A DNA stretch of 33,939 nt, from contig DQSN01000199.1 in NCBI GenBank assembly GCA_015663245.1, positions 1 to 33,939 of the forward strand, read 5' to 3'. Shown piece after piece: positions 458-17,736 of the stretch (position 1 is its first letter; every line of letters begins with the position of its first letter). The notes under the pieces are model-generated. The model saw only the letters and a program-made list of their open reading frames with translations. It made no database searches and had not been told where the DNA came from. The position numbers and the translations under genes were made by a program. Origin of the DNA: Leucothrix mucor (GTDB lineage Bacteria > Pseudomonadota > Gammaproteobacteria > Thiotrichales > Thiotrichaceae).

Positions 458-850
458 AGTGACCTGAAATAAACTGACATAGGCTAGTTTATATCAATTA
501 TTTTGTATAATCTGGAGTATTTTCTCTATCAAAGGAGCGAATACTCTCATCAAATGAGCTATTCGTATAACTCTTTACGAGTTGGTAGTTTAGACTCAAG
601 TTGATATTTGGTGCTCCCCTTTTTTCTTCCCTCTGTGTTAGGTTTCAGGTTGCTTACGGCTGAGCAACAGATTTGAAGAAGTCGCTAATATTATGTTGCA
701 GAGACATTATGATTGAAATGTTATACACTGAAATTCTTCTACGAAAAGGCGTAAATCATAAGAGTTGATCGCCGCAGAGGAAAAGCCGACTCTAAAACTT
801 CTTCAAGTTAGATGGCATCTAAATAACAATTTTGACCGTAAGACAACAAT
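458..850. other. Intergenic region between broken nuclease gene and copper operon
   Basis: These 393 bases separate two divergent genes and must hold promoters for both. No convincing ORF, RNA gene or CueR/CusR-type dyad was recognised. A TATAAT box near 505 lacks a good -35. Short inverted repeats are present (GAGTATT/AATACTC around 511-547 and AACTC-TTTAC-GAGTT near 571-585), together with AACTT-CTTC-AAGTT near 798-811. None is strong enough to name a regulator. Confidence 0.4.
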
Positions 851-1189
851 ATGCAGCGTATAACCTCCTTTTTACTGATGTTAATCATGACGGCACTTCC
901 CGTGTTCTCTATTGCTGCGCCTGCCCTTCATCAAAATATGACGCATGCTAGTCCAGTAACAACTGCTTTAGATAAAATTCAAGCAGTGACTGCTACAGCT
1001 CATGACTGCTGTCAAACACTTGAGTTGTCGTGTGATTGTGATAATGGTCAATCTAGTTATTCTGCAATTCACTCACTGACGAATATCGCCACTACGCACA
1101 GTCGTACTGTATTCAAAAACTCCCTAATAACTACTCTTAGTTACTTCCGTTCTGATTCTCTTTATCGCCCCCCAATAGCCGTTATTTAA
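851..1189 (+). CDS. Small secreted Cys/His-rich protein of a copper operon
   Basis: The protein has 112 residues with a clear Sec signal peptide (MQRITSFLLMLIMTALPVFS, cleavage near IAA-AP), so it should be periplasmic. The mature part carries HDCC and, ten residues later, CDCD, both plausible soft-metal sites. It ends in SLYRPPIAVI. A C-terminal YRPP motif after a Cys/His region is typical of small proteins found at the head of copper-resistance operons (the CopL/DUF2946-like class), and this similarity is the only family clue. It lies 168 bp upstream of the cusB-like gene on the same strand, with a possible attenuator in between. A metal-sensing, chaperone or leader role is inference from context. 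The start was chosen because the signal peptide begins there. Confidence 0.65.
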   Translation: MQRITSFLLMLIMTALPVFSIAAPALHQNMTHASPVTTALDKIQAVTATAHDCCQTLELSCDCDNGQSSYSAIHSLTNIATTHSRTVFKNSLITTLSYFRSDSLYRPPIAVI

Positions 1190-1357: not shown

Positions 1358-2815
1358 ATGAAATTTTTAATAAAGACAATTATCTTTTTAGTATTGCTGG
1401 CAGCTTTAACGGTAATGGGCATTTGGCTTATTAACGACAATCCTAAACTTGAAAAAATATATGATGATTCGATAGGACAATTCACAGGACAAACATTTGA
1501 TCAAACGTTTGATATTGTCGCCAACGACAGCCTAGAAGAGCATGTTGATCGTCATAATGATCCTACTTATGTTTGTCCGATGCATCCGCAAATTATCAAA
1601 GGTGAGCCAAGTAATTGCCCGATTTGTGGCATGGATTTAGTCTTAAAAAGCCCCGTTAAACCCAAGCCTGTAAAGAAAGCTGAATCTCCTAAAGAAAAGA
1701 AAATTCTTTACTGGGTTGCGCCAATGGACGCTAATTACCGCCGCGATGAGCCAGGAAAATCACTCATGGGCATGGACTTAGTACCTGTTTACGAAACAAA
1801 CACAAATACTGATGATGACGATGGTTTACCACAGATAACCATTAATGCCAGCATTGCGCAAAACATGGGGGTGCGTATTGAAAAAGCACAGCGACGTAGC
1901 TTGTCACGCACCATCAAAACCATTGGTTCGGTAACTTATAACGAAGATACTTTGCATCATGTGCATGTACGTTCTAATGGTTGGGTCGAGCATGTTAATA
2001 CCCGCTCACTTGGCGATAAGGTCAGTAAGGGAAAGGTGCTATTAGAATATTATTCACCCGATATTCTTGCGGCACAAAAAGACCTGATAGTTGCCAGAAG
2101 AGCTAGCTCTGTTATCTCAGGAAGACGCGGCACATCACTTAGCGAAGCTTCTAAAACAAGGTTACGTGATCTCAGCGTGCCACAAAGTGTGATTAATAAA
2201 ATAGTACGCACAGGAAAATCACAAAACCGTATCCCGATTATTGCCAAGCATGATGGTGTCGTGGTTAGTGTCGGCATTCGTGATGGCATGTATATCACGC
2301 CAACCACCGAGCTTTACACCATTGCCGATTTATCCACCGTATGGGTCATTGTGGATGTGTTCGAGCATCAACTCACTTGGGTTAAAGTTGGTAATAGAGC
2401 AGAGATAAAAGTCCAAGGCATTCCTGCGAAGACGTGGAAAGGTGTGATCGATTATATCTACCCCGAGCTCAATCCCAGCACACGCACTCTAAAAATCCGC
2501 CTAAAATTCAATTCACCTAAGCAGCAGCTAAAACCCAATATGTTTGCCGACGTTACCCTGTATAACGATAGTAAACAGGCTTTAAGCATTCCTTCCGAAG
2601 CCATCATTTATTATGAAAATAGCCCACGCGTGGTTAAGCGTATTGACGATGGGCAGTACCAACCCGTCGAGATTAAAATAGGTTTGAAATCTGAAGGGCA
2701 CGTTGAGGTATTAGAAGGTATTAGTGAAGGCGATGAGATACTGGTTTCAGGGCAATTTATGATTGATTCCGAAAGTAATCTACAAGCCAGTTTTAGACGA
2801 CTTAGCGGCAAATAA
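1358..2815 (+). CDS. cusB: Heavy-metal RND efflux periplasmic adaptor (CusB-like)
   Basis: This 485-residue membrane-fusion protein should link the inner-membrane pump to the outer-membrane channel and hand over Cu(I)/Ag(I) in the periplasm. Residues 1-24 form a membrane anchor or signal. Residues 71-95 are a heavy-metal-binding domain of the YHS-like type, YVCPMHPQII...NCPICGMDLV, with Cys73, Met75, His76, Cys87, Cys90 and Met92. A second, Cys-less copy follows (YWVAPMD...GMDLVPVY, about 118-145), as is common in CusB proteins. The rest is the usual barrel-sandwich, alpha-hairpin and beta-barrel region, including NASIAQNMGVRIEKAQ and the VSGQFMIDSESNL ending. The cusA-like gene begins 15 bp downstream. 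Metal specificity (copper/silver rather than zinc/cobalt) is inferred from the Met/Cys-rich N-domain and the CusA-type pump. Confidence 0.93.
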   Translation: MKFLIKTIIFLVLLAALTVMGIWLINDNPKLEKIYDDSIGQFTGQTFDQTFDIVANDSLEEHVDRHNDPTYVCPMHPQIIKGEPSNCPICGMDLVLKSPVKPKPVKKAESPKEKKILYWVAPMDANYRRDEPGKSLMGMDLVPVYETNTNTDDDDGLPQITINASIAQNMGVRIEKAQRRSLSRTIKTIGSVTYNEDTLHHVHVRSNGWVEHVNTRSLGDKVSKGKVLLEYYSPDILAAQKDLIVARRASSVISGRRGTSLSEASKTRLRDLSVPQSVINKIVRTGKSQNRIPIIAKHDGVVVSVGIRDGMYITPTTELYTIADLSTVWVIVDVFEHQLTWVKVGNRAEIKVQGIPAKTWKGVIDYIYPELNPSTRTLKIRLKFNSPKQQLKPNMFADVTLYNDSKQALSIPSEAIIYYENSPRVVKRIDDGQYQPVEIKIGLKSEGHVEVLEGISEGDEILVSGQFMIDSESNLQASFRRLSGK

Positions 2816-2830: not shown

Positions 2831-5800
2831 ATGCTTGCAAATATAATAGAAGCCTCGATCCGCAACCGTATTTTAGTCATGATGATGACTGCATTGCTTA
2901 CAGTATGGGGATTGGTATCGCTATCAAATACACCGCTGGATGCTATTCCTGACTTGTCTGATGTTCAGGTTATTGTAAAAACTAGCTTCCCTGGACAAGT
3001 ACCACAAGTGGTCGAAGATCAAGTTACTTATCCTATTACCACCACCATGTTAAGTGTTCCAAAAGCTACAGCAGTGCGTGGATTTTCCTTTTTTGGTGAT
3101 TCTTACGTTTATGTGATTTTTGAAGATGGTACGGATATTTATTGGGCGCGAGCGCGCGTTCAAGAATATCTAACTCAAGCTGCTAGTCAACTACCTGATG
3201 GTGTTGAACCTCGTTTAGGTCCTGATGCCACGGGAGTTGGCTGGGTGTATGAGTATGCTCTTGTTGATAGAAGCAATACTCACGATTTATCGCAACTACG
3301 TTCTTTGCAAGACTGGTTCTTAAAGTACGAGCTACAAACGGTTAAGGGTGTCTCCGAAATTGCCACCATTGGCGGCATGGTTAAGCAGTATCAAGTGATT
3401 GCTGACCCTGATAGTTTGCGGGCTTACAATATTACTTTAGAGCAACTGAAAACTGCAATTCAGCGTGCTAATCAAGAAACCAGTGGTTCGGTGATGGAGC
3501 TGGGCGAAGCTGAATATATGATTAGCTCCAAAGGCTATCTGAAAAATGTTAGTGATATTGAAACCATTCCTGTGAGCTTAAACAAAGCCACAGGTTCGCC
3601 GATTCTCCTGCGTGATATTGCCAAAGTTCGCATAGGCCCACAAATGCGGCGCGGAATAGCCGAGTTAGATGGTGAAGGTGAAGTGGTGGGCGGTATTGTG
3701 GTGATGCGCTATGGTGAGAATGCCTTACAAGTCATTAAAGATGTTAAAATAAAAATAGAGCAACTGAGGGCAGGTTTGCCCAAAGGTGTAGAGATTGTTA
3801 CTACCTATGATCGTTCTAAATTAATTTTAAGTGCGGTCGATAACCTCAAAGTTAAACTGCTAGAAGAGTTTGCGGTGGTGGCGATTGTTTGCTTAGTCTT
3901 TTTGTTCCATCTGCGTTCTGCATTGGTTGCTATTCTCAGCTTGCCGATTGGGATTATGGCAGCATTTATCGTTATGCAGCAGCAAGGCATCAATGCCAAT
4001 ATCATGTCACTAGGAGGGATCGCAATTGCTATTGGAGCGATGATTGATGCGGCAATTGTGATGATCGAAAATGCCCATAAACATCTGGAGTATTACAAAG
4101 AAAAGTATGGAAAAATGCCCACAGGTCAGGATCATTGGCGGGTTATCAGCAAGGCATCAATTGAAGTTGGTCCTGCCTTATTCTTCTCCTTATTGATTAT
4201 TACTTTGAGTTTTGTGCCTATCTTCTTTCTTGAAGCACAGGAGGGTCGTTTATTCTCGCCACTCGCCTTTACTAAAACTTATTCAATGGCGGCTGCGGCT
4301 GGCTTATCCATTACCTTAGTACCTATTTTAATGGGCTATTTAATACGTGGAAATTTGCCCAAAGAAAGTAGCAATCCGCTATCAGCTTTTTTAATTGGGG
4401 TTTATCGCCCTTTACTTAAAGCCTGTTTGTCAGCGCCTTGGCTCACCATTTTCGCCTCATTCTTGATTATGTTATCTGCTTTTATTCCCTTACAAAATAT
4501 CGGCAGTGAATTTATGCCTGAGTTGGAAGAAGGCGATCTCTTGTATATGCCAACTACACTCCCTGGTATCTCGATTGGTAAGGCGCGCGAGTTGTTAATG
4601 CAAACAGATAAGTTAATTAAAACCATGCCAGAAGTAGAGCGGGTATTTGGTAAAGTCGGACGAGCAGAAACTGCCACCGACCCAGCGCCTTTAACCATGC
4701 TTGAAACCACCATTATGCTCAAACCCAAGAGTGAATGGCGCAAAGGCATGACCTTGAAAAAACTGATTGCTGAACTTGATGCGCTAGCCAAATTCCCTGG
4801 ACTAACAAATGCATGGGTGCAACCCATCAAAACTCGTATTGATATGTTGGCAACAGGTATTAAAACACCTGTTGGTATCAAAATCGCAGGGCAAGATTTA
4901 AAAGTCATCGAACAAATCGGTAAAGATATAGAAGCAATTTTGCAGGATGTTCCTGGCACCGCCTCGGTATTTTCAGAGCGTGTTTCGGGTGGACGTTATA
5001 TTGAGATTATTCCTGATCGTGTCACTGCGGCGCGTTTCGGTCTTAATATTGCCGATATTCAAACCATTATCAGCTCAGCTGTCGGTGGTGCAAATATCAC
5101 GCAAACAGTGGAAGGCTTAGAACGCTATCCTGTGAACCTGCGTTATCCACGTCATACCCGTGATGATATTGACAAGTTGATGGAATTACCACTAGTGACA
5201 CCTTCTGGCGCACATATTCCACTATCGCGTGTAGCAAGCATTCGCTTTAGCGAAGGTCCACCGATGATCAAAACCGAAAATGCACGTTTAAATGGCTGGG
5301 TCTTTGTGGATATTCGCGATGTTGACCTTGGTGGCTATGTTGAAAGTGCGCGTCAAAAACTCCAAGATACGCTAAAACTTCCCCCAGGATATTCCGTCAC
5401 ATGGGCAGGTCAATATGAGTACTTATTACGTGTGAAAGATAAGCTATCACTGGTTATACCCATGATGTTATTGATTATCTTATTGTTACTCTATATGACT
5501 TTTCGCAGTATGACTGCTGCGATGATTATTATGCTATCGCTACCTTTCGCTTTGGCGGGTGGTATTTGGTATCTCTATATTTTGGACTTCAACTTTTCAG
5601 TCGCCGTTGCGGTTGGCTTTATTGCTTTAGCGGGGGTCTCCGCCGAGTTTGGCGTTATCATGTTAATTTATTTAAACAATGCTTTAGGGGAGCGGCATAT
5701 AGCAGGAAACCTAAAAACAATCACTGACCTTAAAGACAGCATCATGGAAGGTGCAGTAATGCGTGTGCGTCCTAAAGCCATGACCGTTGCGGTCATTATT

Positions 5801-5992
5801 GCAGGGTTAGTGCCGATTATGATTGGCACTGGCACTGGCTCAGATGTGATGAAGCGTATAGCCGCTCCCATGATCGGCGGCATGATTACTGCACCGCTAC
5901 TTTCCCTTTTTGTTATCCCCGCCATTTACCTTATCTGGAAGCGATCACCGTTAAAAAACAGCCGTGCCGATAAGAAGCAGGAGAAAAAATAA
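2831..5992 (+). CDS. cusA: Cu(I)/Ag(I)-type RND efflux pump (CusA-like)
   Basis: This 1053-residue proton-driven inner-membrane pump of the HME-RND family has the usual full length. The start is the ATG after GGGGGATATAACC. TM4 carries the proton-relay motif GAMIDAAIVMIENAHKHLE, with the essential Asp at about residue 406 (Asp405 in E. coli CusA). The family signature TRIDMLATGIKTPVGIKI is present and supplies one of the periplasmic substrate-site methionines. Further Met residues occur in PLTMLETTIMLKP. The N-terminal TM, two large periplasmic loops and the C-terminal TM block (ending VIPAIYLIWKR) are intact. It lies between the adaptor and two outer-membrane factors and should form the tripartite exporter with them. 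Monovalent copper/silver is the best-supported substrate by motif, though this is family inference. Confidence 0.95.
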   Translation: MLANIIEASIRNRILVMMMTALLTVWGLVSLSNTPLDAIPDLSDVQVIVKTSFPGQVPQVVEDQVTYPITTTMLSVPKATAVRGFSFFGDSYVYVIFEDGTDIYWARARVQEYLTQAASQLPDGVEPRLGPDATGVGWVYEYALVDRSNTHDLSQLRSLQDWFLKYELQTVKGVSEIATIGGMVKQYQVIADPDSLRAYNITLEQLKTAIQRANQETSGSVMELGEAEYMISSKGYLKNVSDIETIPVSLNKATGSPILLRDIAKVRIGPQMRRGIAELDGEGEVVGGIVVMRYGENALQVIKDVKIKIEQLRAGLPKGVEIVTTYDRSKLILSAVDNLKVKLLEEFAVVAIVCLVFLFHLRSALVAILSLPIGIMAAFIVMQQQGINANIMSLGGIAIAIGAMIDAAIVMIENAHKHLEYYKEKYGKMPTGQDHWRVISKASIEVGPALFFSLLIITLSFVPIFFLEAQEGRLFSPLAFTKTYSMAAAAGLSITLVPILMGYLIRGNLPKESSNPLSAFLIGVYRPLLKACLSAPWLTIFASFLIMLSAFIPLQNIGSEFMPELEEGDLLYMPTTLPGISIGKARELLMQTDKLIKTMPEVERVFGKVGRAETATDPAPLTMLETTIMLKPKSEWRKGMTLKKLIAELDALAKFPGLTNAWVQPIKTRIDMLATGIKTPVGIKIAGQDLKVIEQIGKDIEAILQDVPGTASVFSERVSGGRYIEIIPDRVTAARFGLNIADIQTIISSAVGGANITQTVEGLERYPVNLRYPRHTRDDIDKLMELPLVTPSGAHIPLSRVASIRFSEGPPMIKTENARLNGWVFVDIRDVDLGGYVESARQKLQDTLKLPPGYSVTWAGQYEYLLRVKDKLSLVIPMMLLIILLLLYMTFRSMTAAMIIMLSLPFALAGGIWYLYILDFNFSVAVAVGFIALAGVSAEFGVIMLIYLNNALGERHIAGNLKTITDLKDSIMEGAVMRVRPKAMTVAVIIAGLVPIMIGTGTGSDVMKRIAAPMIGGMITAPLLSLFVIPAIYLIWKRSPLKNSRADKKQEKK

Positions 5993-5993
5993 G

Positions 5994-7262
5994 ATGAAAA
6001 TTAAAATGATTCCATTCTTCTCGGCAGTATTTGCCATCAGCTTAATGATAAATACAGTGGTAGCAGCTCAAGTGCCTATTACGCCATTTAATCAATTGGT
6101 GAAAATAGCTATCAACAATAATTCCACACTTAAAGCGAAGCAATTGGCATGGAAAAGCTTGATTCAGCAGTATCCACAGGCAACTGCCTTAAATGATCCA
6201 CGCTTGGTATACAGCGAGTCACTGCGCCCTATTGAAACCCGCCTTGGACCACAAGAACGAGCGCTCTCTATTAATCAAAAAATTCCATACCCTGGTAAAC
6301 TTGCGCTCAAAGGTGAGGTAGTTAAGCAAAGGATAGAAATTGCTAAACTGCGTTATGACCAAGCCAGTCGTGATTTGATTGTTGACTTGAAAAAGTCCTA
6401 CCATGAGTTGGTTTATCTGGAAAATGCGATAAAACTGAGCTTAAGAAATAAAAAATCTCTCGAAAAAATTACCCGTATTTCCACGTTTGATTATGCCGCT
6501 AATATTAGCAGCCTTAACGATGTCGCTAAGGCACAAAGCCAGTATGCGCAAGTTGCCTACGATGTACAGTTGCTAGAAGAGTTACGCTCAACTGAGAATA
6601 CACGTATAAATACTCTGCTTAATCGTAACCCTGAACAGGTATTTAGAATTAATAGTGCAGTGCGCAAACCCGCAAAATTACCACATTCATTAAAAAGCTT
6701 GTATCAATGGGCTGAGTCGAATGATGAGTTGAAAATTGCTGATGTGATGATTAAGCAGGGGGAGCTTAAAAAGCAGTTATCTCAGTATGCTAGTCGCCCT
6801 GATTTTGATTTTGGTTTGCGCTATACGCAGATAGGTAGCACTAATATTGCGGGACTAGAAGATAATAGCCGTGATGGTATCGCGGTAAGTATTGGTATTA
6901 ATATCCCGCTGAATCTTTCTAAAAATAAGGCGATAAAAGAGCAGGCAAGATTGGAGCAGTTAAGAAGTATTGAAGATAAAAAATCTTTAATGAGCACACT
7001 TAAAAATAAGGTGAAAGGTGTGTATTTTAAATTAAATAACTCGCACCGATTAATCACTTTATATGGCAATAATCTTATCCCTCAGGCAAATCGTGCCATG
7101 CATATTGCCGAGCTACAGTATCGAGAAAATAAAGGTTCTATTGCCAAATATGTAGAGACTCAGTCAACATGGCTTAACTTTCAATTAGCCTATCACCGCG
7201 CCTTGGCAGATTACGCTAAAAGCATTGCGGAAATGGAAAAACTAACGGGGAGAAAACTGTGA
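5994..7262 (+). CDS. Outer-membrane efflux channel, TolC family (first of two)
   Basis: This is the outer-membrane factor of the exporter, forming the trimeric channel that docks on CusA/CusB. The frame is open from 5964 inside cusA, but the ATG at 5994 is preferred. It follows the cusA stop (5990-5992) and has CAGGAG ten bases upstream. From there the 422-residue product starts with a Sec signal peptide (MKIKMIPFFSAVFAISLMIN, cleavage near VVAAQ) and has no lipobox. The duplicated TolC alpha-helical repeats are recognisable: FNQLVKIAINNNSTLKAKQL, the conserved FPG-like IPYPGKLALKGEV, and the second-half GLRYTQIG...INIPLNL. It is slightly short for the family but looks complete. It overlaps the next gene by 4 bp (GTGA), implying translational coupling. 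Confidence 0.85.
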   Translation: MKIKMIPFFSAVFAISLMINTVVAAQVPITPFNQLVKIAINNNSTLKAKQLAWKSLIQQYPQATALNDPRLVYSESLRPIETRLGPQERALSINQKIPYPGKLALKGEVVKQRIEIAKLRYDQASRDLIVDLKKSYHELVYLENAIKLSLRNKKSLEKITRISTFDYAANISSLNDVAKAQSQYAQVAYDVQLLEELRSTENTRINTLLNRNPEQVFRINSAVRKPAKLPHSLKSLYQWAESNDELKIADVMIKQGELKKQLSQYASRPDFDFGLRYTQIGSTNIAGLEDNSRDGIAVSIGINIPLNLSKNKAIKEQARLEQLRSIEDKKSLMSTLKNKVKGVYFKLNNSHRLITLYGNNLIPQANRAMHIAELQYRENKGSIAKYVETQSTWLNFQLAYHRALADYAKSIAEMEKLTGRKL

Positions 7263-8812
7263 AGTATCCAACTAAGAAATTCATAGTAATAGCCCTGCCA
7301 CTGCTTGGTGTGATTGGATTATCTGCTTGTAGCAGCATCAAACCAAAGACTAATACCTTGCAGCGTTTGCAGTACGAAGCAGATCATCATCAATATTCTA
7401 GCTATGTAAAAAACAACCTAAGTCCTCAGGCTGCTATTAGCTCTGCGCATGTAAAAAAATACCCTGTTAATACGGGCAACATCAGCCGCTTCTTAGCGGT
7501 TGAGAAAAAACGAATGACTCAACATAAAAAACGCTCTCATGGGAGTATTAGGTCGGTTGTAGGGCGTAATGGTTTGTATACGCCATCATCTGCCTCACGG
7601 CAAAAATCAGCTATAAAAAACAGCTTAAAACAAACAGCACCTTTAAGTGCAGTTTTAAGCATCGCATTAAGAAATAATTTGGATATTAAAAGCAGCCAAC
7701 AAACTGCACTTGCTAGCTTGTCTAAATATGATCAGGTGAGTGCTTTGGATGATATGTTGGTGCAATACTCGGCATTCACAAAAGACATAAACCTTACGGG
7801 AAGTACGCAGAAACATAATAAATCAGTTAGCTCAGGATTCCCCTTTCCTGGCTTAACCGCATTAAAAGCATCCATTATTGATCAGTCTGTAGAGTCTTCT
7901 CGCTTGCAGCTAAAACAAACAGTGCAAGATGTGATTACTCAGGTACGCATTGCTTATTATGAGCTGCAATATGCCCAGCAAGAAAGCAGCCTCACCTTGC
8001 AAAATAACAAACTGTTACAATCCCTTAAAGAGGAGCTGGAAAATGCTTATGCGAGCAATACCTCAAGCTTAAATGAAATATTACAGATTGATATTGAAAT
8101 TGAAGAAAATAGAAACAGCAACCGTATCGCCAAGAATAAGCAACAGGCTCAACAAGCACGTTTAAACGCACTGCTTAATCTAGATTCGACCTTTAAGCTG
8201 GGAAGGTTAGATGCTTTAAAGCCCGTTAGAATGACAAGGAACGCTCAACAATTATTAATAATCGCTAAAAATAAGCGTGTGGAGATTGCTCGTTTACGCT
8301 CTAATTTAAAGAAGATGAAGCGTATTATTCAGCTATCTGAAAAACGTTTTTATCCAGATTTTGATGCAGGCTATAGCCGCTTCCAAAACCGTACAAGCCA
8401 GCAGGTCGGAAGTAACGCCAATCGAGATGCTTTCTCTAAGCGCCCTAAGATCAAAAGCAATGGATTCTTTGCCAAGAACGATGCGTATTTAACGGAAACA
8501 AAATTAAAATACAAAGCTTTGCAAGCGAAGATCAACGCCCTGAATACCAAAACAGCCGATGATATTCAGCAAGCTTTATCCAGTTATCAAACACAAAAGA
8601 ACCACTACACACTTTACCAATCCAAAATATTGCCTAAGGCAAAAGAGTCATTAGAACTGGCTAAAAATGATTTTGAAGCAGGCGAAGGCGGTTTAGCTAA
8701 CATCATCAGCTCACAACAAATGGTGCTTAATTATCGCTTGCTAGTCTTTAAAGCCACTGCGGGAATGAATGTGAATGTGGCAAAGTTGAAGCGCATAGTG
8801 GGGGAGAGTTAG
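7259..8812 (+). CDS. Outer-membrane efflux lipoprotein, TolC family (second of two)
   Basis: This is a second outer-membrane factor of 517 residues. The start is GTG at 7259, overlapping the previous stop by 4 bp. The N-terminus is a lipoprotein signal with lipobox LSAC (Cys24 region of MKYPTKKFIVIALPLLGVIG-LSACSS), unlike its upstream neighbour. About 100 residues of Lys/Ser-rich linker with little family similarity precede the TolC core, which begins near VLSIALRNNLDIKSSQQTAL. Elements parallel to the first factor are visible: SKYDQVSALDD, FPFPGLTALKASI and YYELQYAQQES. The end keeps the GGLANIISSQQMVLNYR type of terminal helix. Whether it replaces, alternates with or mixes with the first factor in the complex is unknown. 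The convergent bufferin-like operon ends 121 bp further on. Confidence 0.82.
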   Translation: MKYPTKKFIVIALPLLGVIGLSACSSIKPKTNTLQRLQYEADHHQYSSYVKNNLSPQAAISSAHVKKYPVNTGNISRFLAVEKKRMTQHKKRSHGSIRSVVGRNGLYTPSSASRQKSAIKNSLKQTAPLSAVLSIALRNNLDIKSSQQTALASLSKYDQVSALDDMLVQYSAFTKDINLTGSTQKHNKSVSSGFPFPGLTALKASIIDQSVESSRLQLKQTVQDVITQVRIAYYELQYAQQESSLTLQNNKLLQSLKEELENAYASNTSSLNEILQIDIEIEENRNSNRIAKNKQQAQQARLNALLNLDSTFKLGRLDALKPVRMTRNAQQLLIIAKNKRVEIARLRSNLKKMKRIIQLSEKRFYPDFDAGYSRFQNRTSQQVGSNANRDAFSKRPKIKSNGFFAKNDAYLTETKLKYKALQAKINALNTKTADDIQQALSSYQTQKNHYTLYQSKILPKAKESLELAKNDFEAGEGGLANIISSQQMVLNYRLLVFKATAGMNVNVAKLKRIVGES

Positions 8813-8932: not shown

Positions 8933-9715
8933 TTAAAACGACGTAACCTTTAACTCCACAATCATATCTGCTGCGAGCCAAGTTGAGATAAATCCCGCGA
9001 CCCTTGCTGGGGCGTGTTCTTCATCTATCCACTCACATACGCCTGCACAAATTTCTGAAAAGCTAGCCCCTTGTATGACATTATCCAAAGCCCATGCTTC
9101 ATCAACGTCAACTGAGCGATAGTAGGTTTTTAAATCCTTGCGCCAGATTATCCAAGGAATAGGGTACTCTGCTTCTTCAATGGGAATTTCACCCGTTTCA
9201 TCCTCAATAGCTGCCCATAGTTGTGGCACATTCCATTGCAAATCAACACGAGCTACGGAAGGGTGCAATACAAAACCCAAATCTGCCCATGTGTTTGGTG
9301 CAACTGTTTGCAAAGCATCTAAACCTAGTGATGATAAATCTTTTGCATCGAAAGCATCGCGTAACGCCCATTCAAAACGTGCCATTTCCGCTAATACGCC
9401 AGTCTCTTGATGATGGTCTTTTAAAAAGGCTTCGAGATGACTGCCAAAATAGCGAATGGAGAAGTGTTGCGAAGGGTAGTCTGCGATGTATTTAATGCCA
9501 TCATCATAAAAACCTTCATCACCCAACAAAGTATGAACAGAGGGGTAGTTATCCGATAAGGCATCTATCAAACGGTAACGGTAAGCATTGGCATAAATAG
9601 CCAGTCTGATATCCACACTGACTTTTTTTGTACCTAGTACTTGTGAGTGAATATCACCTGACTCTGTTTTTAGCCACTGCATCATATCCCGCTGTAAAGC
9701 TAGTAAATCAGACAT
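8933..9715 (-). CDS. DUF2063-family partner of the MNIO enzyme (HvfC/BufC-like)
   Basis: This 260-residue protein has a DUF2063 N-terminal domain: LLALQRDMMQWL, then RLAIYANAYRYRLIDALSDN, YPSVHTLLG and FSIRYFGSHLEAFL within about residues 5-100. A second alpha/beta domain extends to the end (DLGFVLHPSVARVDL, ...WRKDLKTYYRSVD). In characterised systems the DUF2063 protein binds the RiPP precursor and delivers it to the DUF692 oxygenase. Older annotation calls the family putative DNA-binding, which the context does not support. Its ATG overlaps the end of the DUF692 gene by 8 bp, so the two are probably translated together. It is the last gene of the operon. It lacks a signal peptide, so modification should occur in the cytoplasm before export. 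Confidence 0.85.
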   Translation of the reverse strand: MSDLLALQRDMMQWLKTESGDIHSQVLGTKKVSVDIRLAIYANAYRYRLIDALSDNYPSVHTLLGDEGFYDDGIKYIADYPSQHFSIRYFGSHLEAFLKDHHQETGVLAEMARFEWALRDAFDAKDLSSLGLDALQTVAPNTWADLGFVLHPSVARVDLQWNVPQLWAAIEDETGEIPIEEAEYPIPWIIWRKDLKTYYRSVDVDEAWALDNVIQGASFSEICAGVCEWIDEEHAPARVAGFISTWLAADMIVELKVTSF

Positions 9716-10541
9716 GCTCAGCCTCCAACATATCAGCTGATATTTGCTTCATCTGCTCATATTCTTTCATTAGCTCAGGTAAGTCTGGAATATTATCATC
9801 ACGTTCAATCATTGCTGAGACATTCCCAAAGCGTTTGACAGATTCCGCATATAATTCCCAAACCGACTGCACTACATCGTGATCATGGGTATCAATAATA
9901 TAATCACCATAGTCACTATGACCCGCTAGATGATGTTGTTGCACGCGCTCTTTTGGCACACCATCGAGATATTCCAAAGGATCAAACTCGTGGTTTATCG
10001 CACTGACGTAAATATTATTTACATCGAGTAACAGCAAACAATCAGCCTCTTCTGCAACGGCTGATAAAAACTCCCATTCAGTCATTTGCGACTGCGTATA
10101 AGAGACATAGCTAGAGACATTTTCAATTAAAATTCGACGTTCTAAGAACTCTTGAACCTGCTTAATACGTGTGGCAACGTGTGTAACTGCCTCTTCTGTA
10201 TAGGGTAGTGGCAAGAGATCATGTGCATTGATACCATCTAAACCCGTCCAACAGAGGTGGTCTGAAATCCATTTTGCATCGGTTCGCTGTGCCAACTCTT
10301 TAACTTGCTGGAGATAGTCAAAGTTTAAAGGATCGTTACCACCAATCGACAAAGAAACACCATGCATGACCATAGGGTAGCGTTCATTAATAGCATCAAG
10401 AAAATAGAGTGGCTTTCCACCTGGAACAAGGTAGTTTTCAGTTAGCACCTCAAACCAATCGACTGCTGGGGAAGTGTCTAATATTGTTTGGTAGTGCTCT
10501 TTTCTCAGCCCTAAACCAAAGCCTAGCGGAGGTAGTTTCAT
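9708..10541 (-). CDS. DUF692 multinuclear non-heme iron oxygenase (MNIO; HvfB/BufB-like)
   Basis: This 277-residue TIM-barrel enzyme is of the MNIO family, whose characterised members oxidise Cys residues of RiPP precursors (to thiooxazole/oxazolone-type groups) using two or three iron ions. Candidate iron ligands are visible: His60 (MVMHGVSLSIGG), His95 (SDHLCW), Glu140 (IENVSSYVSY), Asp173 (LLDVNNIYVSAINH), His204/His208 (HHLAGHSDY), the DTHDHDV segment near 218-224 and Glu246 (AMIERDDNIP). The frame opens with TTG at 10556, but the ATG at 10541 places the family-typical LGFGLGLR near the N-terminus. Neither start has a good Shine-Dalgarno, so translation may depend on upstream coupling or be kept low. 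It lies between the precursor genes and its DUF2063 partner. Its substrate is inferred to be the two adjacent Cys-rich peptides. Confidence 0.92.
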   Translation of the reverse strand: MKLPPLGFGLGLRKEHYQTILDTSPAVDWFEVLTENYLVPGGKPLYFLDAINERYPMVMHGVSLSIGGNDPLNFDYLQQVKELAQRTDAKWISDHLCWTGLDGINAHDLLPLPYTEEAVTHVATRIKQVQEFLERRILIENVSSYVSYTQSQMTEWEFLSAVAEEADCLLLLDVNNIYVSAINHEFDPLEYLDGVPKERVQQHHLAGHSDYGDYIIDTHDHDVVQSVWELYAESVKRFGNVSAMIERDDNIPDLPELMKEYEQMKQISADMLEAEHV

Positions 10542-10575
10542 ATTTATTATTCGCAATCAGTATTGAAGCAGAAAA

Positions 10576-10604
10576 ATACGCAGGATGATTTTCACCGAGC
10601 GTAT
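10576..10604 (-). terminator. Terminator-like hairpin between precursor and MNIO genes
   Basis: On the minus strand ATACGC...GCGTAT enclose a second stem GGTGA-AAA-TCATC (one G-U pair) with a 2x2 internal loop, and five T residues follow. It lies in the 164-bp gap between the second precursor and the DUF692 gene. A partial terminator here would make the precursor transcript more abundant than the enzyme transcript. Found by eye. Confidence 0.5.
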
Positions 10605-10705
10605 CTACTAAAAAGTGAGTTAATTATCACCAAAATAAAACAAATACCCTACACAAAATTGAAGAGTAATCTTTGTCTCAACTCAAGAAAACTCAAACAA
10701 TTAGA

Positions 10706-11017
10706 CTATTGGTTGGTAGACTCAAAGTAAGGATCTCCAGGAACACCATTAGATGCCATGCAATTTGATGCACTCATTGGTAACCAGCCTTTTCCTTTGC
10801 AACTATTAAAACCTTTACAACTACTGTTTGCAGTTTTACACGCCGACTTACCTTTACAGGCATTTACACCGCTACATTGAAAGAAACCAACTTTAGTTGC
10901 TTTGACACCAGAGTCACTTGATGCGACGTTTGCACTTGTGCCTGCACAACCTGCTAAAATTAATCCTGCTGCCGCAGATGCGAGTAATGCGCCTGTCATT
11001 TTTCTTGCTACTTTCAT
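10706..11017 (-). CDS. Bufferin-type Cys-rich RiPP precursor, predicted lipoprotein (copy 2)
   Basis: This 103-residue precursor begins with MKVARKMTGALLASAAAGLI followed by LAGC, a full lipoprotein lipobox with Cys24 as +1 and Ala at +2 (outer-membrane sorting expected). After a short linker come six Cys at 48, 54, 60, 67, 73 and 86, in the pattern CSGVNACKGKSACKTANSSC, then KGFNSCKGKGW and SNC. This matches the BufA2-like group of metal-binding precursors processed by MNIO enzymes. AAGGAG lies 7 bases before the ATG. The Cys spacing (6, 6, 7, 6, 13) is identical to the neighbouring paralogue, but the tail after the last Cys (NGVPGDPYFESTNQ) differs. Role (periplasmic or envelope sequestration of copper) is inferred from the family and from the adjacent cus genes. 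Confidence 0.85.
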   Translation of the reverse strand: MKVARKMTGALLASAAAGLILAGCAGTSANVASSDSGVKATKVGFFQCSGVNACKGKSACKTANSSCKGFNSCKGKGWLPMSASNCMASNGVPGDPYFESTNQ

Positions 11018-11109
11018 GACTATCTCCTTTGATTAAATAAAAACATAGCCACCATAAGTTATTGTAATGACTATATTTTTTATACGTTAGAGATTAATTT
11101 TCAGACGCA

Positions 11110-11136
11110 AAAAACAATTACATTTTAATTGTTTTT
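11110..11136 (-). terminator. AT-rich hairpin with U-tail overlapping the precursor stop codon
   Basis: On the minus strand AAAAACAATTA, loop AAATG and TAATTGTTTTT form a perfect 11-pair stem ending in a run of T. The TAA stop (11118-11120) is inside the stem. It separates the two precursor genes and could act as a leaky terminator or a 3'-end stabiliser. The AT-only stem makes strong termination doubtful. Confidence 0.5.
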
Positions 11137-11423
11137 CCTACTTTTCCGCCTTTCGACAAGCAGTTTGCTTTAGTCTCAGGAATCCAGCCTTTACCTTTAC
11201 AACTATTAAAACCTTTACAGGCACTTGATGCTGTTTGACAAGATGACTTTCCTTTACAAGAGTTAATTCCAGAACACTCTACTTTTGCCATACTCGCCTT
11301 TTGCATAGTCACACCAGACTTTGCCGCAGTATCCATCTTAGCCGTTGACGCACAACCTGCTAGTAATAATGCTGCCGCTGCAGAAGCAAGAGCAACACTT
11401 GATAATTTTTTTGTTGTATTCAT
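11118..11423 (-). CDS. Bufferin-type Cys-rich RiPP precursor, predicted lipoprotein (copy 1)
   Basis: The frame opens at 11450, but the ATG at 11423 has AAGGA nine bases upstream and gives a normal signal, so it is taken as the start (101 residues). The signal MNTTKKLSSVALASAAAALL is followed by lipobox LAGC with Cys24, at exactly the same position as in the paralogue. Core Cys are at 50, 56, 62, 69, 75 and 88 (CSGINSCKGKSSCQTASSAC, KGFNSCKGKGW, ANC). The repeated unit is Cys-Lys-Gly-x-x-x-Cys-like. This is the first gene of the DUF692 operon. The 144 bp separating it from msrA probably carry the operon promoter, but I could not identify it with confidence. The two precursors are clearly a tandem duplication. 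Confidence 0.85.
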   Translation of the reverse strand: MNTTKKLSSVALASAAAALLLAGCASTAKMDTAAKSGVTMQKASMAKVECSGINSCKGKSSCQTASSACKGFNSCKGKGWIPETKANCLSKGGKVGKTIKM

Positions 11424-11567
11424 TGAACAATATCCTTTGATTAATAACACTCATAAATGAGCAAGTACGAAGTACCTTAAAAACATAATATTGGCACTCG
11501 CTATACTAAGCTACGCACAACAAGGGAATATTGGTTGCAAAAAATGCTACAAATTATCATATTCTTA

Positions 11568-12068
11568 CTACTTTGAATTAGGCAAAACCCAGTCAGCACG
11601 TGGAAAGTGACAGGTATATCCTTGAGGGATACGTTCAAGATAATCCTGATGTTCTGGCTCAGCCTCCCAGAAATCACTCACCGCAACGACTTCTGTCGCC
11701 ACTTTCGCAGGCCATAAACCTGAGGCATTCACATCCTCAATCGTCTTCAACGCCATTGTCCGTTGCTCATCACCCACATAAAAAATAGCCGAGCGATAAG
11801 CAGTACCACGGTCATTACCCTGACGATTTACAGTTGACGGATCATGAATCTGAAAAAATAAAGCTAATAGATCCCGATAACTCATTAGCTCATTATCAAA
11901 CTCAATTTCAATCGCTTCGGCATGAGACCCATGATTTCGATATGTCGCATTAGGCACATCGCCCCCTGTATAACCCACACGGGTTGCCGTCACTCCTGAT
12001 AATTTGCGGATTAAATCTTGCATCCCCCAGAAACAACCACCCGCTAAAACAGCTCGCTCAATACTCAT
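11568..12068 (-). CDS. msrA: Peptide methionine-S-sulfoxide reductase MsrA
   Basis: This 166-residue enzyme reduces the S epimer of methionine sulfoxide in proteins. The catalytic motif GCFWG is at residues 11-15 with nucleophile Cys12. The family motifs [12 protein letters not shown] and [10 protein letters not shown] are present, with the conserved block [20 protein letters not shown] downstream. A second Cys ([10 protein letters not shown], near 153) is a candidate resolving residue. There is no signal peptide, so it acts in the cytoplasm. Its ATG overlaps the msrB stop by 4 bp (ATGA), so the pair is co-translated. It lies directly upstream of the bufferin-like operon on the same strand. 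Copper promotes methionine oxidation, so a shared stress role is plausible but not proven. Confidence 0.95.
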
Positions 12069-12520
12069 TGCTTATCACTCTCCTCAACTTGATCTATATA
12101 CTCGCCATAACCTGCTGCCTCCATCTCATCACGAGGAACAAAACGCAGGGAGGCGGAATTAATACAGTAACGTAGACCACCACGATCTTGTGGTCCATCG
12201 GTAAATACATGGCCCAAGTGACTATCGCCATAACTAGAACGCACCTCTGTACGCACCATGCCATGCGCCGTATCACGTAATTCACTCACATATTCCGTAT
12301 CAATTGGCTTGGTAAAACTGGGCCAACCACAGCCAGATTCAAATTTATCAGCAGAGGCAAATAAGGGTTCACCTGATACAATATCAACATAAACACCAAC
12401 CGCATGATTTGATAAATACTCACCGCTACCTGGATGCTCTGTACCACTTTCTTGTGTCACGCGATATTGCTCAGCGTCTAAGGTAGCTAGTACTTTGGGG
12501 TCTTTTTTATACTCAGTCAT
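12065..12520 (-). CDS. msrB: Peptide methionine-R-sulfoxide reductase MsrB (zinc-less form)
   Basis: This 151-residue enzyme reduces the R epimer of methionine sulfoxide. The frame can begin at a TTG (12526), but the ATG at 12520 has GGAG eight bases upstream and is preferred. The catalytic Cys is in [11 protein letters not shown] (Cys119) and the probable resolving Cys in ESGCGWPSF (Cys64). The two CxxC zinc pairs of many MsrB proteins are absent: the equivalent positions read DIVS (about 46-49) and SSYG (about 95-98), so this is the zinc-less subtype. Other family signatures (GHLGHVF-like [19 protein letters not shown]) are intact. It is the first gene of msrBA. Confidence 0.95.
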
Positions 12521-12668
12521 GTGCAAAACTCCGTTAAAACCTTTAATAGATTGATAAGCTCATTCGGCAGACTCATCATTTTTTCTAAACATTATGTAAT
12601 GTGCTCAATCGGAACTCCCCCGCTGTTTTTCTTGTCTGAATTGGGGATGTTAACAAATGGAGTCAATA

Positions 12669-13088
12669 ATGATTGATAAAACTCGACGCAAATTATTAAA
12701 AACGATTGGATACGGTGCTGCCTTGTCGGCAACAGCCGTTTCATCTAGCGCAATTGCACTTAGTGCATCTCACAACGCATCTGTTGCAAACCCTGCTGAC
12801 GAGGTTATTTCTGGCCTTAGTATTTTTCAGCAACAAAGCAATGGCAAAGAAGTCGTATCGTTGATGAATCTTAGCAATGAAGCTATCACACTTGATGCTA
12901 ACGCTCCTGTTAGTTTGAAAAATATAAATGACTCTTTGATGATTAGCTTAAATGCTGCTAACGATGACAAAACAATTACACTACAAGCGGGGGAACGTTT
13001 TGTTTTTAACGTAGAAACAGTCGCTCACTATGCAAAGCTAAGCAGCACACATAAAGCATTTAATGGTGTAGTGGCAATCGCAGCTTAG
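12669..13088 (+). CDS. Small exported protein with Tat-like signal, unknown function
   Basis: The ATG at 12669 is preferred over the in-frame ATG at 12657 because GGAG lies seven bases upstream. The product has 139 residues. The N-terminus MIDKTRRKLLKTIGYGAALS has a twin-arginine pattern (T-R-R-K-L-L-K) followed by a hydrophobic stretch and a Ser/Ala-rich cleavage region, so export by Tat is likely. The remainder is a small beta-rich domain (ISGLSIFQQQ, VVSLMNLSNEAITL, ITLQAGERFVFNVE) with no Cys and no recognisable catalytic or cofactor motif. It stands alone between the divergent msrB and the convergent ureG, followed by a strong terminator. I do not recognise the family. Confidence 0.75.
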   Translation: MIDKTRRKLLKTIGYGAALSATAVSSSAIALSASHNASVANPADEVISGLSIFQQQSNGKEVVSLMNLSNEAITLDANAPVSLKNINDSLMISLNAANDDKTITLQAGERFVFNVETVAHYAKLSSTHKAFNGVVAIAA

Positions 13089-13193: not shown

Positions 13194-13805
13194 TTACAAC
13201 ATTCCTTCTTCTTTAATAAATGCCACCACCTTATCCAAGTTCTCACCCGTTTTCAGGTTGGTAAACAGATAAGGTTTATTACCCCGCATCCGTTTAGTAT
13301 CGCTATCCATCACTTCTAATGATGCGCCAACCATAGGTGCGAGGTCTATTTTATTAATGATCAATAAGTCAGATTTGGCGATCCCAGGACCGCCTTTTCG
13401 TGGGATTTTATCGCCTGCCGCAACATCAATCACATAAATAGTCAGGTCTGCCAGTTCTGGACTGAATGTTGCACTAAGATTATCACCACCGCTTTCGATA
13501 ATCACAAACTCTAAGTTTTCAAAACGGTTACACAAGTCTTCGACTGCGGTTAGATTAATCGAAGCATCTTCTCTAATAGCCGTGTGTGGACAACCGCCTG
13601 TTTCAACACCCACAATGCGATCAGCATCCAGCACTTCGTGGCGTAGTAAAAACTCAGCATCTTCTTTAGTGTATATGTCATTTGTCACCACGGCAAAATC
13701 ATGCTCATCTTTCATTACAGCGCACAGTTGGCGTATTAACGCAGTTTTCCCTGAACCAACAGGGCCGCCAATGCCTAATCTAAGGACAGTATCTTTTTTC
13801 TTCAT
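13194..13805 (-). CDS. ureG: Urease accessory GTPase UreG
   Basis: This 203-residue SIMIBI-class GTPase powers nickel delivery to urease together with UreD, UreF and UreE. The P-loop GGPVGSGKT is at about residues 13-21. The metal-binding CPH motif is in [16 protein letters not shown] (Cys72, His74). The invariant [16 protein letters not shown] is intact, as is the guanine-specificity NKID. Unlike some homologues it has no His-rich N-terminus, so nickel storage probably falls to UreE. It is the last gene of the ure run, 9 bp after ureF, and ends just before a bidirectional terminator. Confidence 0.97.
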
Positions 13806-13814
13806 AGGGTAATC

Positions 13815-14498
13815 TCAAGAACGAAATAAACGGGAGTATTGTGTTTCATGTTGTGCGCTAAGAATGGCAAGCATCGGTAGTGATGCGCCAATCTTGGCAG
13901 TTTTGATGGTTAAGCCTTTATGGACAATATCGGGAATAATCTCGATGGTATTGGATAGTATTTTTTGCCCATTCGTTTGCCCTAATGGGACTAGCTTAAT
14001 GGCTGCTGCTATTTGATTGTCTAGCCACGACCAAAGATAGCCCGTACAAGCTTTCTCACAGCTAATTTTCCATTTCACAGCCGCTAGAGTAAACAACGTC
14101 AAAAAACACACGTTAGGATTTTTCTTCCACACTTCGGCTTCTGCAATGCCCAAATCAAACAATAAGCGAGCCAGTGCTATACCCAACTGCTGATCTTCAT
14201 CTCGTAGCTCTTTCGTTTCACGCTGAGCGCGTAGAAATTGATTCCAGTAGCTCACTTGCTCAAGGTCGTTATCAAGCCATGCCTGATATAAACGTGAAAA
14301 AAGTGGCACATCGGTTTGTTGTAAGCTGTATCGCAAACTATCTTCTAGGCAAGTTTGAGTGCTTTCAGCATTGCTTATCAAACCTGTTTCTATCGCCGAC
14401 TCCAAACCTTGCGAGTAAGCAAATGCACCCACAGGAAGCGTTGGGCTACTGAGCTGTAGTAATTTTAGTAATTGCAAAGACTGCGCCATTTTAGTCAC
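13815..14498 (-). CDS. ureF: Urease accessory protein UreF
   Basis: This 227-residue all-helical protein forms the UreDFG activation complex and acts on UreG GTPase fidelity. The family opening LLKLLQLSSPTLPVGAFAYS and QGLESAIE is present, as are REL-like RETKELRDEDQQLGIALARL and the conserved C-terminal RLFRS. Length matches the family. It follows the small membrane-protein gene by only 2 bp and precedes ureG by 9 bp, so it belongs to one transcript with them. Confidence 0.95.
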   Translation of the reverse strand: MTKMAQSLQLLKLLQLSSPTLPVGAFAYSQGLESAIETGLISNAESTQTCLEDSLRYSLQQTDVPLFSRLYQAWLDNDLEQVSYWNQFLRAQRETKELRDEDQQLGIALARLLFDLGIAEAEVWKKNPNVCFLTLFTLAAVKWKISCEKACTGYLWSWLDNQIAAAIKLVPLGQTNGQKILSNTIEIIPDIVHKGLTIKTAKIGASLPMLAILSAQHETQYSRLFRS

Positions 14499-14500
14499 TA

Positions 14501-14740
14501 TTATTTTCTTAGTTTTTTATCGTTATGACGTACTTTTTTGGCTTTAGTTTTTGGGCGCATTTTATAAGTAATGAACGCGAGCAGAACAACCAGCACAGCA
14601 AATGTTGCACTATGAAAAGGGCTGATTAACAGGTGCATCATCTGCTCATACATGCTGTTACTGTGTAGTGCTTCTGAATGAGCTAAAGCAGTATTGCTAA
14701 AAGAAAAAAGAGTAATAAAGAAAAGATAATTTTTTATCAT
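14501..14740 (-). CDS. Small predicted membrane protein inside the urease accessory operon
   Basis: The frame opens with TTG at 14758, but the ATG at 14740 starts exactly at a signal peptide (MIKNYLFFITLFSFSNTALA), so it is preferred (79 residues). Neither start has a good Shine-Dalgarno. After cleavage the short mature head HSEALHSNSMYEQMMHLL has three His and three Met, then comes one transmembrane helix (about SATFAVLVVLLAFITYKM) and a strongly basic tail (RPKTKAKKVRHNDKKLRK). The expected topology is periplasmic head and cytoplasmic tail. It sits between ureE and ureF with tight spacing. A metal-related role is a guess from the His/Met head and the location. It does not show the HupE/UreJ multi-helix fold. 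I do not recognise the family. Confidence 0.6.
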   Translation of the reverse strand: MIKNYLFFITLFSFSNTALAHSEALHSNSMYEQMMHLLISPFHSATFAVLVVLLAFITYKMRPKTKAKKVRHNDKKLRK

Positions 14741-14773
14741 AACTAGGTTATTTTCCAATGAATAAAGGGGGAT

Positions 14774-15235
14774 TTAATATGAGTGGCTATGATGAGAAGT
14801 CGTATGATAAGCGCCAGATTCAGGCTCAAAAGGTGCTTGTTCGACCTGTACCGTTAAACCTAAGCCCTTCACCATATCGTCCAACACATGATCGTGTTGA
14901 TAACGAATAAAATCAGCATTAATCTGCAAGCTTACATGACGATTACCCAAATGATAACAAGCCCGTGCAAGCTGTAATGTATCGTTACAATAAACCGTTG
15001 ATACTTGCTCTAATGCTGCTTTAATTTGGATTACAACGCTTTCATTATCGCCTGTCACTTTACTCATCAACAGATCATTATGTTCTAAGTGCTTACCATT
15101 TTCCAGCACAATACCTGCTTCACGACCATCATCCAGCGTGGCTTTTAAACGGCTTTTATTACGCTGATCGAAGGTGAGCGTTAGCGTTGTTTCTGGATTT
15201 AAGGGTTCAGATATTTTTTGATTGAATTTCAGCAT
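14774..15235 (-). CDS. ureE: Urease accessory metallochaperone UreE
   Basis: This 153-residue dimeric nickel chaperone passes Ni(II) to the UreG complex. The peptide-binding N-domain is visible in LTLTFDQRNKSRLKATLDDG. The metal-binding C-domain carries CYHLGNRHVSLQI with His95 and His100, near the conserved interface His of the family. The tail (GAYHTTSHHSHSY) is modestly His-rich, with His144, 148, 149 and 151. It follows ureC after an 83-bp gap that contains a perfect palindrome, which may change its expression relative to the structural genes. Confidence 0.95.
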   Translation of the reverse strand: MLKFNQKISEPLNPETTLTLTFDQRNKSRLKATLDDGREAGIVLENGKHLEHNDLLMSKVTGDNESVVIQIKAALEQVSTVYCNDTLQLARACYHLGNRHVSLQINADFIRYQHDHVLDDMVKGLGLTVQVEQAPFEPESGAYHTTSHHSHSY

Positions 15236-15263
15236 GACTATTTTTCAAAGAGAAAGAAAATGC

Positions 15264-15304
15264 ATCCGTAGCCTGTGTTGAGGCACGAAACACAGGCTAC
15301 GGAT
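15264..15304. repeat. Perfect 16-bp inverted repeat between ureC and ureE (REP-like)
   Basis: ATCCGTAGCCTGTGTT (15264-15279), a nine-base loop and AACACAGGCTACGGAT (15289-15304) are exact reverse complements. There is no T-run on the minus strand, so it is more like a dispersed palindromic (REP-type) element or mRNA-stabilising hairpin than a terminator. It lies 15 bases after the ureC stop. Confidence 0.85.
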
Positions 15305-15318
15305 TAATGTAATGTGCT

Positions 15319-17022: not shown

Positions 17023-17339
17023 GATGCCTCCTTATCAAGACTGCCCATCACTTTGCCATTAAAACCATACACATGGCGTTTACCTGCAAAACTCACCAAC
17101 TGTATTGTGCGAGTTTGTCCTGGCTCAAAGCGTACTGCCGTTCCCGCCGCAATATCAAGTCGAAAACCCAGCGATGACTTTCTATCAAAGGTCAAAGCGC
17201 TATTGGTTTCATAAAAATGATAATGCGAGCCGACTTGAATCGGACGATCCCCCGAATTACTGACCTCAAGACTTAATTTTTCACGCCCTTGGTTCAATTC
17301 GATCTCACCCTCAGCTACGCGTAGTTCACCTGCAATCAT
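17019..17339 (-). CDS. ureB: Urease beta subunit UreB
   Basis: This 106-residue structural subunit opens with [18 protein letters not shown] and carries the signatures [40 protein letters not shown] and [14 protein letters not shown]. It begins 9 bp after ureA and overlaps ureC by 4 bp, as in the standard three-gene ureABC arrangement. Not fused to UreA, so this is the bacterial three-subunit type. Confidence 0.97.
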
Positions 17340-17348
17340 GGCATTACC

Positions 17349-17651
17349 TCAAACAATCGGGTTGTGGACAGTGACAAGTTTAGTGCCATCTGGAAAAGTG
17401 GCCTCGACTTGTACATCAGGAATCATCTCAGGAATACCCTCCATGACATCATCGCGCGTTAATAAGGTTTGTCCGTAAGACATCATCTGAGCAACCGTTT
17501 TTCCATCACGCGCACCTTCCATAATCGCGGCACTGATATAGGCGACGGCTTCAGGGTAGTTAAGCTTAACGCCTCTGTCTTTGCGTCGCTCGGCTAGTAG
17601 TGCGGCAGTGAAGAGGAGGAGTTTGTCTTTTTCTCTGGGGGTTAATTCCAT
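17349..17651 (-). CDS. ureA: Urease gamma subunit UreA
   Basis: This 100-residue structural subunit begins [20 protein letters not shown] and carries [20 protein letters not shown] and the closing [21 protein letters not shown] six bases before the ATG is a good ribosome site. It is normally preceded directly by ureD. Here ureD lies 2.8 kb away with plus-strand toxin-antitoxin genes in between, so ureABC probably needs its own promoter. Confidence 0.97.
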
Positions 17652-17684
17652 GATGAATCCTTTGGTGATGATTTTTACTTTAGA

Positions 17685-17693: not shown

Positions 17694-17736
17694 GAATTAT
17701 CAATAAAAATTAGAACTATTATGCGAGCAATATTGA

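Follow-up and report, generated by a model that had tools for sequence, protein, structure and literature searches.

A Buf2 bufferin operon with predicted lipoprotein precursors and putative ECF-type promoters in a Thiotrichaceae genome

The stretch of DNA analyzed here (the window, 33,939 nt, contig DQSN01000199.1 of assembly GCA_015663245.1, Leucothrix mucor) belongs to a 2.7 Mb draft genome (G000) near Cocleimonas, family Thiotrichaceae, and its positions 8933-11423 are a Buf2 bufferin operon encoding two BufA2 precursor peptides, the maturase BufB and its partner BufC. There is good reason to think that both precursors become lipidated, that each precursor gene is driven from a promoter of the extracytoplasmic function (ECF) sigma factor type and that the neighboring genes for a Cus exporter are probably read by the same factor. 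This account is built on the genes and their families, the metal ligands of the enzyme, the lipoboxes of the precursors and a promoter element with its distribution, all of which are observed in the sequences. Genomes, contigs, loci and genera used for comparison carry the prefixes G, C, L and g, respectively.

The Buf2 operon and its maturation enzymes

The operon comprises four genes, read in the order bufA_a, bufA_b, bufB, bufC:

11118..11423, minus strand: bufA_a, first Buf2 precursor, 101 aa (NCBIfam Cu_RiPP_BufA2, 80.6 bits, cut-off 60)
10706..11017, minus strand: bufA_b, second Buf2 precursor, 103 aa (NCBIfam BufA2, 74.4 bits, cut-off 60)
9708..10541, minus strand: bufB, MNIO (DUF692) bufferin maturase, 277 aa from ATG (MNIO_BufB, 384 bits, cut-off 310; PF05114, 379 bits)
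8933..9715, minus strand: bufC, DUF2063 partner, 260 aa (PF09836, 57.3 bits, cut-off 27)

An original prediction, made from the letters of the window, had called the region a bufferin-type operon for a ribosomally synthesized and post-translationally modified peptide (RiPP) with an overlapping DUF2063 partner; the BufA2 and MNIO_BufB models of NCBIfam are both exceeded, and bufC matches PF09836 and overlaps bufB by 8 nt. The closest known systems are the Buf2 bufferins (BufA2/BufB/BufC; Buf_6/12Cys; Leprevost 2024; Antoine 2025, PMC12452194; Caulobacter CCNA_03001-03000-02999), with which the operon shares the six conserved cysteines, the Sec-type signal, the MNIO enzyme with a DUF2063 partner and the A-B-C gene order. 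It differs from the surveyed Buf2 systems in its two predicted lipoproteins, an orphan paralogue at purD and an ECF-type promoter for each precursor.

BufB carries every iron ligand listed for MbnB together with the catalytic base (PMC8888699): H60, H95, E140, D173, N176, H204, D217, E246 and D248 (base), so that the putative iron ligands mentioned in the prediction are all present, with the catalytic Asp in addition. Asp248 is followed by a second Asp (ERDD), a feature reported for enzymes acting on Cys-Lys (Buf2) substrates (PMC13097082). BufC is of PME type 1, with a DUF2063 domain and a C-terminal part resembling a RiPP recognition element (RRE); the best PDB match of its profile, 3DEE (structure of a DUF2063-RRE partner protein), is weak (E = 0.006).

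Other MNIO classes do not fit. The precursors lack the EGKCG motif of the oxazolin/fontiphorin class and BufB has ERDD, not ERDF, while the HvfB model scores 299 bits on BufB, under its cut-off of 360. The MbnB model reaches 51.7 bits (cut-off 325) and the partner is a DUF2063 protein, not MbnC, which sets methanobactins apart. As to the Buf1 class, the window precursors have no match to PF10048 (DUF2282), and the Buf1 set of this genome lies on C96 and C88. This second bufferin set (L104 on C96, L105/L002 on C88) comprises DUF2282 precursors, an MNIO enzyme, a DUF2063 protein and DoxX. In G006, a Buf1 (DUF2282-type) precursor carries a lipobox, LLLTACGG (L130:4284-4589), in contrast to the conventional signal peptide of the C96 Buf1 precursor.

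The precursor peptides

BufA_a and BufA_b each hold six conserved cysteines after an N-terminal hydrophobic stretch (Sec-type signal), with Cys-Cys distances of 6, 6, 7, 6 and 13 in both, an exact match to the spacing originally predicted. The same distances are present in 77 of the 80 distinct precursors collected, and the spacing thus marks the family, not a recent duplication. As a sign of recent duplication it was rejected: the two peptides are only ~47% identical, and bufA_b, seen only here and in G007, forms a fast-diverging offshoot within the bufA_a clade of the tree. The view of the pair as duplicated precursors holds, with two additions, namely that a third lipobox paralogue (bufA_c) stands alone beside purD (G000:C118) and that tandem precursors have already been published.

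A seventh cysteine, on which the prediction was silent, lies inside a lipobox in both peptides (LLLAGC-A and LILAGC-A; the call is a pattern match made without a trained predictor), and mature BufA_a and BufA_b are therefore probably lipoproteins. Lipoboxes occur in nearly all Buf2 precursors within the Thiotrichaceae and in a minority outside the family. Neither the lipobox nor the tandem arrangement is new by itself, since the published bufferin survey puts lipoprotein signals at an estimated ~16% and mentions tandem precursors (PMC12452194).

In BufA_a, cysteines 2, 4 and 5 are part of CKG motifs; across the 77 precursors CKG is found at Cys 2 in 74, at Cys 4 in 56 and at Cys 5 in 73. By analogy with the Cys-Lys class (PMC13097082), these three would be the likeliest modified residues. 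An AlphaFold2 model of BufA_a, built for disulfides and free cysteines, was unusable (mean predicted local distance difference test score, pLDDT, 62).

Variants of the precursor genes were seen in several relatives. Upstream of a complete bufA_b, G007 retains a bufA_a remnant (L118:5766-5894; 42 aa, C-terminal half), as if the leading gene of the tandem were decaying there. In genus g7 (G014, G025), the product of the first precursor gene (L109:4400-4760, minus strand; L110:5440-5760, plus strand) is a short lipoprotein whose C-terminus consists of four near-perfect hexapeptide repeats (e.g., NSCSGKDSCKGKDSCKGKNSCSGK). This gene has the same ECF-type promoter and forms a tandem with one for a normal Buf2 precursor; its repeats may make the lipoprotein another kind of substrate for the same MNIO. 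A MerC-Buf2 fusion in G003 (L119:3370-4077), adjoining a MerR regulator and a CobW-type GTPase, resembles the chimaeras described in PMC12452194.

Within the Gammaproteobacteria and outside them, the bufA2-bufB-bufC order is retained. The arrangement in the sister genus is purD-bufA-bufA-bufB-bufC-rhomboid gene-gsp genes. In the genus of the window the pieces are scattered, with bufA_c still at purD; in G005 a pair of precursors adjoins purD, away from bufBC, and in G001 and in G034 of the sister genus precursors and bufBC lie on separate contigs. The operon in the window is a further product of such rearrangement.

A probable ECF-type promoter element

Two copies and one near-match of a two-block element occur in the window:

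11512..11539, minus strand: ECF-type promoter of bufA_a, TGCAACC-N17-CGTA, 88 nt 5' of the ATG, found in 6/6 aligned genomes
11083..11109, minus strand: ECF-type promoter of bufA_b, TGCGTCT-N16-CGTA, 65 nt 5' of the ATG, between the precursors
814..840, plus strand: near-match of the element ahead of the cus cluster, GGCATCT-N16-CGTA, 10 nt 5' of the first open reading frame (ORF)

When the region upstream of bufA_a was aligned from six genomes with different neighborhoods, two blocks stood out as conserved, TGCAACCA and CGTA, with a spacing of 16-17 nt, and the layout TGCATC[CT]-N15-17-CGTA also precedes bufA_b, bufA_c and the precursors of the sister genus. When one fixed pattern, TGCA[AT]C[CT]-N15-17-CGTA, was sought in the 200 nt upstream of each ORF, it was found ahead of 20 of 26 Thiotrichaceae Buf2 precursor genes and of 3 of 418 other ORFs (Fisher 1.7e-26). 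Two of those three are of interest, namely a bufB gene that lies apart from its precursors (G034) and the gene of an ECF sigma factor in the window genome itself (G000:C145:6198-6737, minus strand).

Applied to the fetched loci, a matrix derived from the Buf2 sites matched 23 of 29 ECF-family genes (Fisher 3e-29) and 6 of the 489 remaining family genes; the first cus gene accounts for four of these six (window, G002, G012, G018; Fisher 8e-7, or 3e-5 with G012 and G018 of the sister genus counted once). Counts for Buf2 genes are partly circular, because Buf2 sites defined the matrix; the matches at ECF, cus, detached bufB and Buf1 genes are not. The element lies usually 20-120 nt before start codons. 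It precedes the cus lead gene in four of nine genomes, that of the window included (genera g1 and g5), both a Buf1 precursor and an MNIO gene in G032, and a DoxX gene in G009. Outside the Thiotrichaceae only 2 of ~44 Buf2 precursors score above 14, so the element and its regulon look lineage-specific.

The same scan recovered the SigF motif of Caulobacter ahead of the Buf1 and Buf2 precursors of Novosphingobium (L092), which served as a positive control. Across the whole genome, GCAACC-N15-18-CGTA gave 14 matches and a reversed control pattern 15; the short pattern alone is hence unspecific, and the signal rests on position and conservation. Searches for sigma-70 promoters and simple terminators gave nothing above shuffled controls.

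The ECF gene on C145, unlinked to the buf operon and preceded by its own copy of the element, encodes a protein resembling SigK-type factors (140 bits with the SigK model, curated cut-off 226), and the gene after it has weak RskA_C similarity (28.9 bits, cut-off 29.4). The NrsF anti-sigma factor (PF06532) is absent from the genome. In G009, G016, G021, G024 and G032 (genera g2 and g6), the orthologue of the ECF gene is no more than 2 kb from a BufB-family MNIO gene. Pairing of this sigma factor with the element is an inference from these co-occurrences, on which the bufferin and Cus export genes of this lineage are probably members of a single ECF regulon.

The Cus exporter and other neighbors

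The genes flanking the operon are the following:

851..1189, plus strand: small Cys-containing exported protein, cus lead gene, with an equivalent position in relatives
1358..2815, plus strand: cusB adaptor with heavy-metal-binding domain(s) HMBD (PF16576, PF19335)
2831..5992, plus strand: cusA, heavy-metal permease of the resistance-nodulation-division type (TIGR00914, 1296 bits, cut-off 701)
5964..8812, plus strand: two OEP (TolC/CusC-like) outer-membrane genes (PF02321)
11568..12526, minus strand: msrB and msrA, upstream of bufA_a (PF01641, PF01625)

The cus cluster and the buf operon are convergent, with 120 nt between the bufC stop and the stop of the last OEP gene, as predicted. That the exporter is of the Cus type is borne out by the TIGR00914 score and by E. 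coli CusA, the closest solved structure (1362 bits). The three methionines of the copper site are conserved in an alignment to 3T51. The cluster resembles E. coli CusCBA in these traits and in a CusB with a metal-binding domain; it differs in its two outer-membrane genes, in the small Cys protein that leads it (851..1189, no Pfam family matched) and in that no CusF was seen.

The survey of precursor neighborhoods for cusA that had been proposed as a check went against a conserved adjacency: among 67 related MNIO loci, none has a CusA above ~25% identity in the fetched flanks, and the CusA genes of relatives are on other contigs or far off from the Buf2 loci. Conserved Cus-Buf2 synteny was accordingly rejected, no other fetched Buf2 locus having a true CusA nearby. 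In genus g8 (L140/G015, L142/G026, L141/G020) a single co-directional cluster reads bufB-bufC-small Cys protein-cusB-cusA-Buf1 precursor-second adaptor, the Buf1 precursor of G020 (L141) being a weak match, masked in the ORF list.

Beyond msrB, a small Tat-signal-like ORF (12657-13085) is divergent from and adjoins it; its similarity to the formate dehydrogenase region TAT target family is weak. Urease genes, both structural and accessory, and then a urea-type ABC transporter occupy positions 13194-27948, a region broken by several PIN-domain toxin-antitoxin-like genes (17796-18595, 20003-20437, 21371-21775).

Alternative explanations

Several observations weigh against an ECF regulon that joins bufferins and Cus export. 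The genomes compared are related metagenome-assembled genomes, so that the counts are non-independent; the cus element is slightly degenerate, just 10 nt from the ORF start and missing in G005, G014 and G015; no clear element was found for 6 of 26 Buf2 precursors, for the Buf1 precursor gene of G006 or for most detached bufB genes, and that of the G000 Buf1 gene (C96) is weak. These cus-related points, with the lack of conserved adjacency, would suit a standard Buf2 operon whose Cus neighbor and cus promoter match are coincidental, cus being controlled separately, e.g., by a metal sensor elsewhere. Such a coincidence is possible, if rather unlikely: only 6 of 489 unrelated family genes reach the score and four of them are the cus lead gene, and in genus g8 the Buf1 set is physically fused with cusBA. 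Conservation alone cannot separate an ECF promoter from the site of a classical activator or repressor. The latter is nevertheless very unlikely given two blocks at a fixed spacing of 15-17 nt, a CGTA second block, a position 20-120 nt before starts, the presence of the element ahead of the ECF gene itself and a layout as in the mapped SigF promoters of Caulobacter (PMC3511200), whose motif is found in Novosphingobium.

The original prediction went further and proposed a sequestration-export-repair module for copper that included msrBA, whose location ahead of the operon was correctly read (same strand, 144 nt between the end of msrB-msrA and bufA_a). The sequestration-export half gains support from the ECF-type promoter shared by bufferin and cus genes. 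The layout argument for three parts fails as stated because the neighbors are not conserved, and msrBA gives no sign of membership in the regulon. A single functional operon of msrB-msrA with the bufferin genes is quite unlikely, despite the short gap, a second case in G006 of the same genus in which msrBA follows another Buf2 precursor (purD-bufA_c-msrB-msrA) and the precedent of Caulobacter, where SigF co-controls bufferins and a different enzyme, the periplasmic reductase MsrPQ (PMC8224329). No ECF element precedes msrB and bufA_a has a promoter of its own behind msrA. The window MsrA and MsrB carry no signal peptide and so would act in another compartment. Conserved msr-Buf2 synteny was rejected, being limited to the window genome and G006: relatives in the genus carry their msr genes at other places (msrBA of G008 has no bufferin genes beside it; G001, G003 and G004 have another msrB elsewhere). 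msrBA is thus probably a separate transcription unit outside the conserved system. An orphan bufA_c, species with precursors and bufBC on different contigs and a further MNIO set that includes a DUF2282 precursor would be compatible with unmodified, metallothionein-like Cys-rich lipoproteins, BufBC serving another substrate such as the Buf1 precursor on C96/C88; the widely kept bufA2-bufB-bufC order and an ERDD signature that fits Cys-Lys substrates make this highly improbable.

Proposed mechanism and relation to known systems

For the Buf2 operon with ECF-type promoters the following sequence of events is proposed. BufB, with BufC, would oxidize cysteines of BufA_a and BufA_b (likeliest those of CKG at positions 2, 4 and 5) in the cytoplasm, yielding, by analogy with characterized bufferins, copper-binding thiooxazoles. 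The modified precursors would be exported by Sec and then trimmed and lipidated by signal peptidase II, as expected from the lipobox in both, and would stay anchored in a membrane, facing the periplasm; Ala at residue +2 points to the outer membrane as the probable site. Each precursor gene would start from its own ECF-type promoter, read by the unlinked, autoregulated SigK-like factor on C145 that an RskA-like anti-sigma factor would hold, and the same factor probably reads the neighboring cus operon too. Sharing of one sigma factor would mean that envelope stress, presumably copper, would raise the membrane-bound copper buffer and the export pump together; copper, as ligand and as signal, is deduced from the protein families.

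The sequence read by Caulobacter SigF, GTAACC-N16-CGAA, precedes a methionine-sulfoxide reductase as well as the two bufferin operons (PMC3511200, PMC8224329). The SigF/NrsF system resembles the present one in its ECF sigma factor, a -35/-10 pair (16 nt apart there) and bufferin targets; here the motif is TGCA[AT]C[CT]-N15-17-CGTA, the anti-sigma factor is RskA-like with no NrsF, and cus is an apparent target. SigK/RskA pairs (PMC7509140) share with the C145 genes the proximity to SigK-type models, the RskA C-terminal similarity and, by prediction, autoregulation; the C145 pair falls below both curated cut-offs, occurs in Gammaproteobacteria and has copper genes as predicted targets. As in the lipidated MNIO RiPPs (DAG-RiPPs DybA and NedA), a lipoprotein would be made after MNIO modification; that work predicted bufferins with signal peptidase II signals and tested other precursor classes, no Buf2 of this lineage among them (PMC12636315). 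Chances are about even that a SigK/RskA-like ECF factor of this lineage, linked to Buf1 in related genera, now switches an envelope copper response made of lipid-anchored Buf2 peptides with their own promoters plus Cus. The novelty is this set of regulator, promoter and targets, not the peptide system, and no description of such regulation was found in the literature.

Bufferins are widespread copper sponges whose relation to export pumps is unclear, a question that the predicted sigma factor, promoter and targets make testable. The published survey reports sigma factor genes for Buf1 clusters only, with none for Buf2 (PMC12452194), and the present case indicates how unlinked Buf2 genes may be controlled; the element also offers a way to find bufferin regulons whose precursor and enzyme genes lie dispersed. 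Lipidation of the precursors, if it occurs, would place the copper buffer on a membrane and so alter how copper could be handed over to Cus or shed in vesicles.

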